A model generated the notes under the pieces. That model searched no databases. It was not told the DNA's origin and worked only from the letters and a program-made list of their open reading frames with translations. The translations under genes were made by a program, and so were the position numbers. A stretch of DNA of 64,000 nt from Betaproteobacteria bacterium. GTDB lineage: Bacteria > Pseudomonadota > Gammaproteobacteria > Burkholderiales > Burkholderiaceae_F. The stretch covers positions 1 to 64,000 of the forward strand of contig BOKW01000003.1 in assembly GCA_016861185.1 (NCBI GenBank). Direction: 5' to 3'. Of this stretch, positions 21,745 through 63,079 are shown piece after piece. How positions within the stretch are numbered: the stretch's first letter is position 1; each line of letters opens with the position of its first letter.

Positions 21745-23325
21745 ATGAAGCGACTGATGGCCGTCGCCGCGCTCGCCGCGGCGCTCGCCTGCGGCGCCGC
21801 GGGCGGCAAGACACTGCGCTTCGCCTCGCAGGGCGATCCGCAGACCGCCGACCCCTATTCGCAGAACGAGAGCTTCACCAACATGTTTGCGCAGGCGGTG
21901 CACGACACGTTGGTCATGCGCGACAACACGCTGAAGCTCGTACCCGGGCTGGCGATCTCGTGGGAACAGGTCAATCCGACGACGTGGCGATTCACCCTGA
22001 GGCGCGGCGTCAGGTTCCACGACGGCTCGCCGTTCACCGCCGACGACGTCGTGTTCAGTTTCGAGCGCGCGCAGCACCCGAATTCGCAGATCCGGCAGTA
22101 CGCGAACGCGGTCGGCAAGCCGCGCAAAGTGGACGACTACACCGTCGAGTTCGTTCAGGAGCGGCCCAATCCGATCACGCTCGAGCACGCGACCACGGTG
22201 TTCGTCATGAGCAAGGCCTGGGCGGAGAAGTACAAGGTCGAGCGGCCGCTCGACTTCAAGGCCAAGGAGGAGACCTACGCGTCGCGCAACGCCAACGGCA
22301 CCGGCCCATGGATCCTCGTGTCGCGCGAGCCGGGCGTGAAGACCGTGCTGAAGCGCAATCCCGACTGGTGGGGCATCAAGGAGGGGCGCGCGCCGGGCAA
22401 CGTGACCGAGGTCGTCTACACGCAGGTGAGCGCCGACGCCACCCGCACCGCGGCACTGCTCGGCGGTCAGATCGACTTCGTGCTCGACCCGCCCCCGCAG
22501 GATCTCGCGCGGCTCGAGAACAACAAGGACACGAAGGTCGTCCGCGGACAGGAGAACCGCGTCGTGTTCTTCGGCTTCGACCAACACCGCGACGAATTGC
22601 TGTACTCGAACGTCAAGGGCCGCAACCCGTTCAAGGACGTGCGCGTGCGGCAGGCCGTGTATCACGCGATCGACATCGAAGCGATCCGCACGCGCACGAT
22701 GCGCGGCTCGGCGCTGCCTACCGGCGGCATCACGCCGTCGATCCTGGCGTCGAACCCGGAGGCAGAGCGCCGCCTGTCGTTCGACCCGCAGCGCGCGCGC
22801 CAACTGCTGGCCGACGCCGGCTACCCGAACGGCTTCGAGGTCACGCTCGACTGCCCGAACAACCGCTACATCAACGACGAGGAGATCTGTATCGCAGTGG
22901 CGGCGATGCTGACCAGGGTCGGCATCGCGACAAGGGTCACGGCGATGCCGCGCGCCACCTACTTTCCGAAGCTGGAGAAGTACGACACCAGCTTCTACAT
23001 GCTGGGTTGGGGCGGCGCGATCACCGACGCGCAGACGACGCTGTGGCCGGTGCTGCGTTCGAAGGACGACAAGACCGGCAACGGCGGCTTCAACTACGGC
23101 CGCTATGTAAACCCGAAGCTCGATGCGCTGATCGATGCCGCCGGCGTGGAGATGAACGCGGAGAAGCGGCGCGAGTTGATCCGGCAGGCGCTCGCCGAGC
23201 ACAACGCGCAGGTGCACCATGTGCCGCTGCACCGGCAGATGATCCCGTGGGCGATGCGCAGCAACGTCCACGTCGTGCACCGGGCCGACAATTGGCTGAA
23301 TCTCGAGTCAGTCCGAATGGACTGA
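21745..23325 (+). CDS. ABC transporter substrate-binding protein, family 5 (peptide/DppA-like)
   Basis: Periplasmic solute receptor of the oligopeptide/dipeptide group, 526 residues with a signal peptide (MAVAALAAALACGAAGG). Family-5 blocks include TLRFASQGDPQTADP, WRFTLRRGVRFHDGSPFTADDVVFS and NPDWWG. AGGAGGAGG precedes the ATG at 21745. No permease or ATPase genes are near, so it is an orphan receptor between kdsB and adk. The last codons (NWLNLESVRMD) partly reappear after the palindromic element that follows, as NVLNLE plus a stop. Confidence 0.92.
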   Translation: MKRLMAVAALAAALACGAAGGKTLRFASQGDPQTADPYSQNESFTNMFAQAVHDTLVMRDNTLKLVPGLAISWEQVNPTTWRFTLRRGVRFHDGSPFTADDVVFSFERAQHPNSQIRQYANAVGKPRKVDDYTVEFVQERPNPITLEHATTVFVMSKAWAEKYKVERPLDFKAKEETYASRNANGTGPWILVSREPGVKTVLKRNPDWWGIKEGRAPGNVTEVVYTQVSADATRTAALLGGQIDFVLDPPPQDLARLENNKDTKVVRGQENRVVFFGFDQHRDELLYSNVKGRNPFKDVRVRQAVYHAIDIEAIRTRTMRGSALPTGGITPSILASNPEAERRLSFDPQRARQLLADAGYPNGFEVTLDCPNNRYINDEEICIAVAAMLTRVGIATRVTAMPRATYFPKLEKYDTSFYMLGWGGAITDAQTTLWPVLRSKDDKTGNGGFNYGRYVNPKLDALIDAAGVEMNAEKRRELIRQALAEHNAQVHHVPLHRQMIPWAMRSNVHVVHRADNWLNLESVRMD

Positions 23326-23335
23326 CTCGAAGCCG

Positions 23336-23396
23336 ATTGCGTCGCAGGCTGGCTGCGCAGCGCGCGGTCAAGCGGCGCAGCCGCGGCCGGAGACAC
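23336..23396 (+). repeat. Palindromic 3'-end element, copy C
   Basis: A 61-nt core in the same layout as copies at 50199 and 61958. The left arm (23336-23350) ends in CGCAGGCT. A first hairpin has stems GGCTGCGC and GCGCGGTC (8 pairs, two wobbles), then AA, and a second hairpin GCGGC-GCA-GCCGC. The right arm (23385-23396) is GGCCGGAGACAC. It begins 10 bases after the stop of the peptide-binding protein gene, on the same strand. The stems differ in sequence from the other copies but still pair. Confidence 0.8.
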
Positions 23397-23417
23397 AACG
23401 TACTGAACCTCGAATGA
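23397..23417 (+). repeat. Repeated gene end after element C
   Basis: Directly after the core, seven codons read N-V-L-N-L-E-stop. The upstream gene's own end at 23290 reads N-W-L-N-L-E and continues five codons further. Asn, Leu, Asn and Glu are kept, with synonymous changes at both Asn codons and at Glu; the second codon differs in meaning. The match is shorter and weaker than at copies A and B, so this copy may be older and decayed. Confidence 0.6.
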
Positions 23418-49418: not shown

Positions 49419-50180
49419 ATGGAAATCAGGAACAACGCGTTCATCGTCACCGGCGGCGCGTCGGGGCTCGGCGGCGCGACTTCGCGCATGCTCGCCGCGC
49501 AGGGGGGCAAGGTCGTCATCGCCGATGTGCAGGCGGACAAGGGCGAGGCGCTGGCGAAGGAGTTGGGCAGCGCGACCTTCGTCAAGTGCGACGTGACCAG
49601 CGAAGCGGACGGCCAGGCCGCGGTCGCTGCGGCGCTGGCGCTCGGGCCGCTGCGCGGGCTGGTCAACTGCGCGGGCATCGCGATCGGCGAGAAGACCGTC
49701 GGCAAGGACGGCCCGCACCGGCTCGACGCGTTTGCGAAGGTGATCAACGTCAATCTGGTCGGCAGCTTCAACATGATCCGGCTCGCCGCCGACGCGATGG
49801 CCAAGCAGGACACCGCAGCCGACGGCGAACGTGGCGTGCTAATCAACACCGCGTCGGTGGCGGCGTTCGACGGTCAGATCGGGCAGGCCGCGTATTCGGC
49901 GTCGAAAGGCGGCATCGTCGGCATGACGCTGCCGATCGCGCGCGACCTGTCGCGCGCCGGCATCCGCTGCATGACGATCGCGCCTGGCATCTTCGAGACG
50001 CCGATGCTGCTCGGCATGCCGCCCGAAGTGCAGGAGTCGCTCGGCAAGATGGTCCCGTTCCCGCAGCGCCCCGGCAAACCCGCTGAATACGCCGCCCTCG
50101 TCCGCCACATCATCGAAAACGTGATGTTGAACGGCGAGGTGATCCGCCTCGACGGCGCGATCCGCATGCAACCGAAGTGA
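49419..50180 (+). CDS. Short-chain dehydrogenase, 3-hydroxyacyl-CoA dehydrogenase type 2-like
   Basis: NAD-dependent SDR of 253 residues. Cofactor motif [12 protein letters not shown] at residues 10-21, NCAGIA, catalytic Ser in [12 protein letters not shown] and the Y-x-x-x-K pair in [22 protein letters not shown] and the ending match HSD17B10-like 3-hydroxyacyl-CoA dehydrogenases used in fatty-acid or branched-chain degradation. The last 63 bases (from the Asn codon at 50118) recur after the palindromic element that follows. Confidence 0.92.
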
Positions 50181-50198: not shown

Positions 50199-50261
50199 GT
50201 TTGGGCGCAGGCTGACGTGCGAAGCACGTCAAGCGCGCCGCAGGCGCGCGGCCGGAGCCAG
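50199..50261 (+). repeat. Palindromic 3'-end element, copy A
   Basis: 63-nt core, 18 bases after the SDR stop. The left arm is GTTTGGGCGCAGGCT. Hairpin 1 is GACGTGC-GAA-GCACGTC, then AA, then hairpin 2 GCGCGCC-GCA-GGCGCGC. The right arm is GGCCGGAGCCAG. Both stems are perfect 7-pair stems closed by G-N-A triloops, which are unusually stable in single-stranded DNA. Arms match copy B almost base for base while the stem sequences differ. Confidence 0.9.
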
Positions 50262-50324
50262 AACGTGATGTTGAACGGCGAGGTGATCCGCCTCGACGGC
50301 GCGATTCGAATGCAGCCAAAGTAA
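50262..50324 (+). repeat. Repeated gene end after element A
   Basis: 63 bases that repeat the SDR gene end (50118-50180). They read 20 codons and a stop, [10 protein letters not shown] and so on to M-Q-P-K. Five bases differ and every change is synonymous, including TGA to TAA at the stop. All five lie in the last 21 bases. The copy follows the right arm of the element with no gap. Confidence 0.92.
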
Positions 50325-61014: not shown

Positions 61015-61938
61015 ATGCCGGACGGATCGATCAGGCACTTCCTGCAACTCGCCGACTTCACGCGCGACGAGATCGAGCACGTGTTCGAGCGCTCGCGCGT
61101 GATCAAGGACCGCTTCAAGCGCTACGAGTTCTACCAGCCGCTGCGCGACCGCACGCTCGCGATGGTGTTCGAGAAGGCGAGCACGCGCACGCGCGTGAGC
61201 TTCGAGGCCGGCATGTACCAGATGGGCGGCTCGGTGATCCACATCACGACCGGCGACTCGCAGCTCGGGCGTGCCGAGCCGATTGAGGACACGGCGCGCG
61301 TGATCTCGCGCATGGTCGACCTCGTGATGATCCGCACCTACGAGCAGACGAAGATCGAGCGCTTCGCCGCGTATTCGCGCGTGCCGGTGATCAACGGTTT
61401 GACTAACGAATACCACCCCTGCCAGATCCTCGCCGACATCTTCACCTTCATCGAGCAGCGCGGAGCGATCGCGGGGCGCACGGTCGCGTGGATCGGCGAC
61501 GCGAACAACATGGCGTACACCTGGCTGCAGGCCGCGAAGCTGCTCGGCTTCACCGTGCACGTGTCCACACCGCCCGCGTACGCGCTCGACCCGAAGCTCG
61601 CGCCGCCTGGGCCGCACTTCAAGGTCTTCGACAATCCGCGCGACGCCGCGCGCGGCGCGCACCTCGTGACGACCGATGTCTGGACCAGCATGGGCTACGA
61701 GGCGGAGAACGAAGCGCGCCGCCAGGCTTTCACGCACTGGCGCGTCGACGCCGCGCTGATGAAGTTCGCCGCGCCCGATGCGCTCTTCATGCACTGCCTG
61801 CCGGCGCACCGCGGCGAGGAGGTCACCGAAGAGGTGCTCGAGGGCCCGCAGTCGGTCGTCTGGGATGAAGCTGAAAACAGGCTGCACGTGCAAAAGGCGC
61901 TCATGGAATACCTTCTGCTTGGACGCGATGTTCACTAA
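61015..61938 (+). CDS. argF: Ornithine carbamoyltransferase
   Basis: Makes citrulline from ornithine and carbamoyl phosphate. The 307 residues are full length. The carbamoyl-phosphate loop is STRTRVSFEAG, then HPCQILADIFT, and the ornithine site contains MHCLPAHRGEEV. The last 63 bases, from the Asn codon at 61876, are repeated with synonymous changes after the palindromic element that follows. The eight-base gap to argD indicates an operon. Confidence 0.97.
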   Translation: MPDGSIRHFLQLADFTRDEIEHVFERSRVIKDRFKRYEFYQPLRDRTLAMVFEKASTRTRVSFEAGMYQMGGSVIHITTGDSQLGRAEPIEDTARVISRMVDLVMIRTYEQTKIERFAAYSRVPVINGLTNEYHPCQILADIFTFIEQRGAIAGRTVAWIGDANNMAYTWLQAAKLLGFTVHVSTPPAYALDPKLAPPGPHFKVFDNPRDAARGAHLVTTDVWTSMGYEAENEARRQAFTHWRVDAALMKFAAPDALFMHCLPAHRGEEVTEEVLEGPQSVVWDEAENRLHVQKALMEYLLLGRDVH

Positions 61939-61957
61939 GGACGCCTTCGTGCAGCCT

Positions 61958-62020
61958 GTTTCGGCGCAGGCTAACCCGCGCAGCGGGTTAAGCCGCGCGC
62001 AGCGCGGCGGCCGAAGCCAG
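61958..62020 (+). repeat. Palindromic 3'-end element, copy B
   Basis: 63-nt core, 19 bases after the argF stop. The left arm is GTTTCGGCGCAGGCT. Hairpin 1 is AACCCGC-GCA-GCGGGTT, then AA, then hairpin 2 GCCGCGC-GCA-GCGCGGC. The right arm is GGCCGAAGCCAG. The outer arms can also pair (TTTCGGC with GCCGAAG), giving a three-way junction. It matches copy A in length and layout exactly. Confidence 0.92.
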
Positions 62021-62083
62021 AATCGGCTGCACGTGCAGAAGGCACTCATGGAATACCTGCTCCTTGGTCGGGACGTTCACTGA
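62021..62083 (+). repeat. Repeated gene end after element B
   Basis: 63 bases that repeat the argF end (61876-61938): 20 codons from N-R-L-H-V to R-D-V-H plus a stop. Ten bases differ and every difference is synonymous, including AGG to CGG for Arg and TAA to TGA at the stop. The copy joins the right arm of the element directly. Confidence 0.94.
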
Positions 62084-62101
62084 CCCGATGGTGCTGCGTA
62101 T

Positions 62102-63079
62102 ATGAACGCGAATCGCCGCAGGCTTCTTGCTTCCGCGGGCGGCTTGACATTGCTGGCTATGCGCCGCGCGACGGCGCAATCGTGGCCCGCAAAACCGATC
62201 CGGCTGGTCCTGACCGCACCGCCCGGCTCTTCGATCGACGTGCTCGGCCGTCTGATCGCCGGCGAGCTGCGCGCGCGGCTCGGCCAGCCGGTCGTGCCCG
62301 ACAATCGTCCGCAAGGGGGCGGCACCGTCGGCACCGACACGGTCGCGAAGGCCGAGCGCGACGGCTACACCATCGGGCTGTCGTTCACCGGACCGCTCGC
62401 GCTGGCGCCGCTGCTGTACGCCAGGCTGCCGTACGACCCCGCGCGCGATCTCGCGCCGATCGTGCTGGTCGGCTCCGCGCCGAACCTGCTCGCGGTCAAC
62501 AGTGCGTTGCCGGTGCAGAGCGCACGCGAGTTCATCGACTACGTTCGCCGGCGGCCGGGCCAGTTGAACTACGCCTCGGTCGGCAACGGCAGCAGCTCGC
62601 ACCTGGCGATGGAAATGCTGAAGGCGCAGGCCGGCCTGTACCTCGTGCATATCCCGTACAACGGCGCGCCGCCGGCGGTACAGGCGACCGCCGCGGGCGA
62701 CGTGCAGGCGATCATGTCGAACCCGACGTCGCTGATGCCCTTGATCCGCGCGGGTCGCGTTCGGCCGCTCGCAGTGACGAGCGCACAGCGCTGGCCTGGC
62801 ATCAAGGAACTGCCGACGATCGCGGAACTCGGCTACCCGGGATTCGAGGCGGTTGCATGGAACGGATTCGTCGCGCCGGCCGGCGCCCCGCGCGAGGTCG
62901 TCGAGCGGCTGAACCGCGAGATCAACGCCATCCTGCAGGTGCCCGACGTGCGCCAGCGCGTCGAGGCGGCAGGCTGGGATCCCGTCGGCGGGACGCCCGA
63001 GCAGTTCGCCGCCTACCTGAAGGCCGAGCGCACACGCTGGGCGCCGATCGTCAAGCGCGCCGGGGCGCGCGTCGACTGA
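62102..63079 (+). CDS. Bug-type (TctC family) solute-binding protein
   Basis: 325-residue periplasmic receptor of the tripartite tricarboxylate transporter family. A leader (RRRLLASAGGLTLLAMRRATAQ) precedes WPAKPIRLVLTAPPGSSID, and GGGTVGTDTVAKAERDGYT and HIPYNGAPPAVQATAAGDVQ are family blocks. Such receptors are numerous in Burkholderiales and often lack a neighbouring transporter, as here. The start lies 18 bases after the repeated argF end. Confidence 0.92.
   Translation: MNANRRRLLASAGGLTLLAMRRATAQSWPAKPIRLVLTAPPGSSIDVLGRLIAGELRARLGQPVVPDNRPQGGGTVGTDTVAKAERDGYTIGLSFTGPLALAPLLYARLPYDPARDLAPIVLVGSAPNLLAVNSALPVQSAREFIDYVRRRPGQLNYASVGNGSSSHLAMEMLKAQAGLYLVHIPYNGAPPAVQATAAGDVQAIMSNPTSLMPLIRAGRVRPLAVTSAQRWPGIKELPTIAELGYPGFEAVAWNGFVAPAGAPREVVERLNREINAILQVPDVRQRVEAAGWDPVGGTPEQFAAYLKAERTRWAPIVKRAGARVD

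Follow-up and report, generated by a model that had tools for sequence, protein, structure and literature searches.

A non-coding unit behind argF likely brings its own gene end and replaces the old one at a conserved Glu-Asn site

Why does the end of argF occur twice, with a palindromic element between the two copies and no change of residue from one copy to the other? We addressed this question in a window of 64,000 nt (the whole stretch of DNA analysed). The initial annotation had reported that the last 63 bases of argF recur after a hairpin core, and counting on the sequence we find this to be exact. The two copies, which comprise the last 21 codons, differ at 10 of 63 bases and every difference is synonymous. 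The differing codons are AAC/AAT, AGG/CGG, CAA/CAG, GCG/GCA, CTT/CTG, CTG/CTC, GGA/GGT, CGC/CGG, GAT/GAC and TAA/TGA, with one base changed in each. The repeat finder reports the pair as a direct repeat of 57 nt with 88% identity. The features of the locus are as follows.

61015..61938, + strand: argF, ornithine carbamoyltransferase (TIGR00658 and NF001986 of NCBIfam above cut-off; frame read); its last 21 codons are part of the unit
61873..61878, + strand: left edge of the insertion, GAA AAC (Glu-Asn); the usual target is Glu or Asp before Asn or Lys
61876..61938, + strand: tail probably carried by the unit, the first copy of the argF end, now joined to the gene body (sequence and repeat search; by analogy with the extent of identity between genomes G384 and G388)
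61875..61888, + strand: arm X, the start of the tail, complementary to X' (inverted repeat, 14/14)
61948..61961, + strand: arm X', an inverted copy of X that runs into the first four bases of the core (inverted repeat; statistics over 63 units)
61958..62018, + strand: core, 61 nt long and dispersed, in which a foot helix closes two hairpins (61973-61989 and 61993-62007) (model R1, E 6.9e-18)
62021..62083, + strand: displaced, probably older argF end, the second copy, with a TGA stop (sequence and repeat search)

The order of elements is thus gene body, X, tail, stop, X', core, displaced X and displaced tail. The argF stop codon TAA lies at 61936-61938, and the core begins 19 bases downstream, at 61958. 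The perfect 14-bp inverted repeat of 61875-61888 with 61948-61961, found by the repeat finder, was absent from the initial annotation. Folding 61870-62090 as single-stranded DNA, we obtained a z value of -4.2 that was equalled by none of 200 shuffles, and the predicted linear-strand fold contains the X:X' stem along with the core hairpins. The unit at argF is non-coding and measures 145 nt. It holds no ORF of at least 60 aa wholly within it and is too short for an integrase. Searching 61600-62300 against Rfam 15, we got two matches, both below the gathering score (21.4 vs 35 and 18.1 vs 90 bits), which rules out an Rfam-known RNA. Both tails encode identical residues, and a foreign origin of the tail is therefore not evident at this argF. 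Two outcomes had been named beforehand as speaking against the insertion of a recoded gene end, namely a tandem duplication without the core and a dominance of missense differences; neither was seen at argF.

We then asked how far the core is dispersed. Blast with the core found related places in the window's genome, and an alignment of six cores gave a three-way-junction model (R1), in which 12 of 23 pairs show double changes. R1 finds 31 good copies in this genome (32 among the matches listed at E up to 1). It places three cores in the window, at 61958-62018, 50199-50259 and 23336-23394. The features at the latter two are given below.

50199..50259, + strand: second core, after a short-chain dehydrogenase-like gene at 49419-50180 (R1 E 1.2e-14; NCBIfam matches to the gene strong, below curated cut-offs)
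50118..50180, + strand: tail of the second unit, which recurs at 50262-50324 with 5 synonymous and 0 missense changes
50262..50324, + strand: displaced end of the dehydrogenase-like gene (sequence repeat)
23336..23394, + strand: third core, after a peptide/nickel ABC transporter substrate-binding protein-like gene that ends at 23325 (R1 E 7.9e-11; NCBIfam matches below curated cut-offs)
23397..23417, + strand: short displaced tail (NVLNLE stop) like the end of the substrate-binding protein-like gene (seen by eye; missed by the repeat search)

Among relatives, the core is present in 19 of 61 (own genome included; E 0.001). Within the order, 95 of 349 genomes contain it (E 1e-4), with a per-genome count of 15 standing for at least 15. 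A sample of the phylum showed it in 6 of 249 genomes (E 1e-5); five of these belong to the order and the sixth to another part of the class. R1 overlooks variant cores, giving no matches in G376, G384 and G388, so that all counts of core-free genomes are upper bounds. The phage and plasmid collections held no match to the window's core, which rules out a phage or plasmid origin. Pattern scans of viral sequences yielded 11 loci with the pattern; two of them (L257 and L258) have the look of a true core, and neither has an adjoining direct repeat.

At 79 of 164 distinct cores, part of the flank, in many cases a gene end, recurs as a direct repeat that begins no more than 14 nt from the core. The controls, 137 random positions in the same loci, gave 5 such repeats. 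The first repeat test had taken 166 of 168 listed cores, and this recount took 164 of 166 distinct cores. Since the core is a dispersed family and repeats adjoin it far more often than they adjoin control positions, the argF pattern is not due to chance, and a plain tandem duplication is ruled out on the same grounds. The initial annotation had also advised checking whether each hit of the arm sequences in the genome is followed by a repeated gene end. Of the 164 cores, 85 showed no adjoining direct repeat in the 350 nt searched upstream of each.

The units stand at many different genes, whose names are our reading of the translations except for argF and the two window genes with NCBIfam matches. 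Duplicated gene ends flank cores at gapA-like, sucD-like, alaS-like, atpG-like and dps-like genes, and duplicated gene starts do so at nuoD and at an acetyl-CoA acetyltransferase-like gene. Halves of tRNA genes are duplicated in the same way. The same genes recur in different families, namely argF, nuoD and those with the ends KPRNLAKSVTVE, DNPECEACQ (Asp for Glu in one genome) and NYMPPEA. The cores at the nuoD starts run antisense to the gene; this speaks for an event at the DNA level and rules out an insertion at the RNA level. At the tRNA loci L026, L028, L043 and L047 of G000, L060 of G019 and L057 of G002, the insertion is found within the anticodon loop or close to it, next to an intact tRNA gene. 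In those of the tRNA loci that were checked, a short hairpin forms from X and X', with no gene tail between the arms.

The edges are alike from gene to gene. Of 35 curated gene-end units, 32 have GAA, GAG, GAC or GAT (Glu/Asp) as the left edge codon, and 124 of 166 cores have ANAA as the junction on their right. In 30 of 32 units, counted from the table, the base N of the right junction fits Glu or Asp just as the left codon does. The junctions read ANAAC and GTTTCGG/GTTGCGT. Tandem arrays hold several diverged tails, five in L025-L033 and three in G264, as if new units had been added in front of old ones. Behind one gene end of G055 (L150), five near-identical units stand in tandem about 145 nt apart, which suggests a recent expansion.

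The frame GTT TCG GCG is open through the core in 101 of 155 distinct cores, compared to 84 for the next frame and 18 for the third. In 74 of the 155 the core length is in phase with the following Asn codon (chi-square p 6e-4), and 58 are both open in this frame and in phase. In G078, the core is read through in frame inside lysS-like (L144:981-1044) and mpl-like (L136:1028-1088) genes (names and frame by eye), where it adds about 24-28 residues and no tail is duplicated. An older in-frame stage of the core possibly preceded tail capture. In G078 (L138-L146) and G055 (L151-L152), the core also lies inside a larger multi-copy repeat. The copies of this repeat in G078 end in CAGGCCGTTGAAAAA / TTTTTCAACGGCCTG, and the core therefore seems to have been captured there by another mobile repeat.

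Does the inverted arm belong to the tail in front of it or to the displaced one? Counted over 63 units, 6.48 of the 10 positions beyond the Asn codon pair between X' and its own X; the figure is 5.19 for the displaced X and 2.76 for the X of other units. The own X pairs better than the displaced X in 35 units, worse in 6 and equally in 22 (p 5e-6); the 63 units were chosen by score and distance and include a few repeats of one locus or array. Furthermore, by our own reading, the nuoD units of G000 and G010 show a paired difference, at one base of X and at the X' base opposite it. The better pairing with the own X and this joint change suggest that both arms are parts of a single mobile unit and that their pairing is maintained.

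We compared argF among relatives with and without the element, as the initial annotation had advised. The genus of G264 was sampled with 61 genomes, many of them incomplete; 55 gave an argF match and 30 argF ends were read. Ten ends carry a full unit, one a mini-core and 19 none, one of the 19 retaining a scrap of the core end. Seven of the 10 full units match R1. The units of G388 and G384, together with their tails, are identical at 148 of 148 nt. The preceding 500 nt of gene body agree at 454 positions (91%) and the displaced tails at 74%. The block of exact identity stretches 3 nt to the left and 8 nt to the right beyond the unit, and the core of this unit is a variant that R1 does not detect. 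G388 was also compared with the closer G421. Their gene bodies agree at 487 of 500 nt (97%), the oldest remnants at 62 of 66 and argG at 280 of 300, whereas different units, of 297 and 108 nt, stand between the same edges. The units of the genus bring C-termini unlike the displaced ones, for instance GKIAS versus GKIK or GRVA.

These comparisons strongly suggest that the unit moves, on the strength of one clean identical pair of genomes. Comparing 229 other cores between genomes (argF loci of the genus excluded; 61 of 77 cores taken in from one set), we found no second clean identical unit. This comparison gave mainly other mobile repeats, repeated loci and arrays; L123/L212 proved to be the same locus twice, and L216/L219 share one unit type inside arrays. 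As judged by comparison, the moving unit appears to consist of X, tail, stop, X' and core, with the Glu-Asn codons as its left edge and the core-ANAA junction as its right. Such a unit, together with its tail, appears letter for letter in two genomes with differing flanks; units with other gene ends appear at other genes, and cores at tRNA genes as well. The initial annotation had held that the element arrives with a recoded gene end, so that the gene stays whole. The relatives bear this out with the identical unit between diverged flanks, the C-termini that differ from the displaced ones and the arm that fits its own tail (35 versus 6 units).

Searching a collection of 84,980 species for the X' and core pattern without argF, we found four loci, all of them at argF ends. 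In the argF units of the genus (L226-L233, L237, L239), X is of either the AACAGR or the AATCGN type, and 9 of the 10 full units stand before a displaced end with the other class of Arg codon. A rule that would demand different Arg codon classes (AGR vs CGN) in X and displaced X was rejected: it holds for these 9 and for the window's unit, but for 1 of 4 named loci and not for the mini-unit.

How do the two tails evolve? Across 39 gene-end pairs we counted 238 synonymous and 79 missense differences, giving a pN/pS of 0.098, a value lowered because the rows had already passed a filter of 50% amino-acid identity. The pairs were picked by hand from 64 rows marked as gene ends (END); second frames, array repeats, tRNA loci taken as frames and copies within arrays were rejected. 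In 16 of the 39 pairs the differences are synonymous only and the same residues are encoded, so that a foreign tail is not evident in those pairs. The tails appear to evolve as protein ends, and a copy that had been dead since the insertion would not look like this. Most simply, the low pN/pS would mean that each tail was selected in a different genome. The earlier view that both ends look selected agrees with the ratio over the 39 pairs and needs refining in one respect. At the gapA-like locus the displaced tail has decayed, with a Trp codon that now reads as stop (our own reading), and displaced tails can therefore decay later.

Taking these observations together, we think it likely that the 145-nt non-coding unit, carrying its own argF end, inserts at a conserved Glu-Asn site and replaces the tail of the gene, and we predict that it is moved by a recombinase encoded elsewhere that would act on a folded single strand. 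From the anatomy, a possible course of events can be outlined. X would pair with X' in an excised single strand. Closed to a circle, this strand would form a dumbbell, whose stem is X:X' with an AAC:GTT attachment site and whose loops are the gene tail and the core. One strand would be opened beside AAC/GTT and linked to that same site in the target gene, and the old tail would be left behind the core. Neither an excised form nor a reaction was observed. More tentatively, and with rather less confidence than even, we propose that a cargo-free single-strand dumbbell of this kind could be a new class of mobile element, with a captured gene end as attachment stem and loop. One core might then adopt the end, the start or the half-tRNA of almost any conserved gene and swap it between species harmlessly, with a recombinase that reads structure, for example an integron integrase working outside the integron, as the driving enzyme.

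Which enzyme could move the unit? No enzyme gene is encoded within it, and from its size of 145 nt it is a fair inference that the enzyme would act in trans. The leading candidate is an integron integrase or a relative of it, a candidacy that we regard as more doubtful than probable. In the order, an integron integrase occurs in 68 of 95 core-bearing and 63 of 254 core-free genomes (Fisher p 3e-15, with kinship ignored), and in a first set it occurred in 16 of 24 core-bearing and 3 of 24 core-free genomes. The window's own genome has a full-length integron integrase above the TIGR02249 cut-off, at G000:C4:358791-359735. In G055, with 41 cores among the matches listed, the gene is in pieces (G055:C1:1442478-1442823). 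Within the genus of G264, the integrase occurs in 22 of 37 core-bearing versus 9 of 24 core-free genomes (p 0.12). Among 26 genomes with at least 5 cores, seven (G103, G134, G173, G198, G264, G290 and G357) gave no integron integrase match at E 1e-60. Ten integrase loci were searched for the core, with a best match of E 0.07; four of them, read by eye, have other, attC-like palindromes beside the integrase. The R box of attC reads RYYYAAC, and its letters are not present at the core. Folding of the core as an attC in the usual polarity was also rejected, since the core has GTT on its 5' side and AAC on its 3' side; it is the X-tail-X' hairpin that shows the attC-like polarity. As for cleavage, a 5'-GNT-3' triplet is all that IntI1 is reported to require, and its cut usually falls between A and C on the opposite strand (PMC10127599). 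The core edges at ANAA|C fit this, although the cut itself is not visible in sequence. Because the R boxes are absent, no core was found at the ten integrase loci searched, the association within the genus is weak and seven core-rich genomes gave no match to the gene at E 1e-60, we name the integron integrase as a candidate only.

Can the pattern arise in another way? Core and tail might enter by natural transformation from related species, with recombination inside the gene body and inside the displaced tail and no dedicated enzyme at work. The tails do resemble orthologous ends of other species, and the gene order behind argF differs among relatives. However, the identity of G384 and G388 stops 3 nt and 8 nt outside the unit, and such homologous import would need two breakpoints at just these edges; it also leaves unexplained the first insertions at many genes with the same edge type and, by our own reading, those in tRNA anticodon loops. 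We consider it unlikely. A local duplication through replication template switching at the hairpin, with the tail copied in place together with an inverted arm and both copies diverging later, is less probable still. On this view, displaced tails should have decayed like any non-coding DNA, but the pN/pS is 0.098. The duplication also has to face the units of the genus of G264, whose C-termini differ from those they displaced, and the one unit common to two genomes. It would account for the inverted arm, which is the expected product of a fold-back copy, and for the pairs that are identical or nearly so (L110, L064, L222 and L188).

A guide-like arm and a hairpin beside both edges would also suit single-strand transposition by a Y1 transposase (IS200/IS605 or RAYT), with X' guiding to the cut sites. 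Among the 24 core-bearing genomes searched, eight core-rich ones (G055, G134, G174, G206, G264, G273, G350 and G357) have no match to PF01797, the Y1 family. This family occurs in 16 of 24 core-bearing and 17 of 24 core-free genomes; for want of co-occurrence with the core, we rejected a Y1 mover, whose involvement appears very improbable. Finally, the locus might be the scar of a larger integrative element, a prophage or island at a gene-end attachment site, deleted down to attL, a common hairpin and attR. Integrative elements go into gene ends and tRNAs and may supply a new stop codon (PMC6563490). Versions with cargo are possible too, as the repeat was sought within 350 nt upstream only and 85 of 164 cores are without one. 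Against this stand the 95 of 349 genomes in which a single 60-70-nt core recurs beside many unrelated genes, the lack of any match to the window's core in the phage and plasmid collections, and the mere two of 11 viral loci (L257 and L258) that resemble true cores. A scar is hardly to be expected. We retain the insertion of a mobile unit with its own gene end as the preferred reading.

If this reading is true, a mobile element would avoid damage to host genes by replacing the gene end, with one short core for many targets. It would provide a natural route for the exchange of protein C-termini between species, and it could help to explain the rise of recombination sites with new letters. Finding the enzyme would suggest a tool for scarless swapping of gene ends. 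For annotation, caution is in place, as diverged gene-end copies behind genes need not be usual pseudogenes.

How does the unit compare with known systems? In a literature search that covered mainly freely accessible papers, we found no description of gene-end-carrying palindromic units. Integrative elements, such as phages, islands and casposons, encode their own integrase and typically use one site per family. Like our unit, they insert at gene ends or tRNA genes and leave direct repeats behind, may occur in tandem and are able to supply a new stop codon (PMC6563490). In contrast to them, the unit has about 145 nt and encodes no integrase, and one core serves at many genes with its own end and inverted arm in each unit. 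The bringing of an own version of the gene end was found in relatives and would apply to the window's argF by extension. Integron cassettes are likewise non-autonomous and stand in tandem arrays; an AAC/GTT-side cleavage would fit the edges, and the integrase co-occurs with the core order-wide. The R box of attC is given as GTTRRRY in PMC10127599. The unit differs in that it lacks this consensus, is absent at the 10 integrase loci, stands at the ends of coding genes and has a gene tail as its hairpin loop.

Rickettsia palindromic elements, MITE, REP and YPAL are short palindromic dispersed repeats, as the core is. The Rickettsia elements can be read in frame inside genes (PMC2229807), as the core seems to be in the lysS-like and mpl-like genes of G078; argF is no such case. 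By the descriptions compared, PMC2229807 among them, such small mobile repeats are not said to bring a gene end. The window's unit has neither the terminal inverted repeats nor the TA target duplication of a MITE, X' being internal and the repeat a 63-nt gene end. A REP/RAYT system would call for a Y1 transposase, to which the eight core-rich genomes gave no match. By analogy, the unit appears to work like an integrative element that brings a gene end, with one short non-coding core serving many genes, each with its own end and arm.
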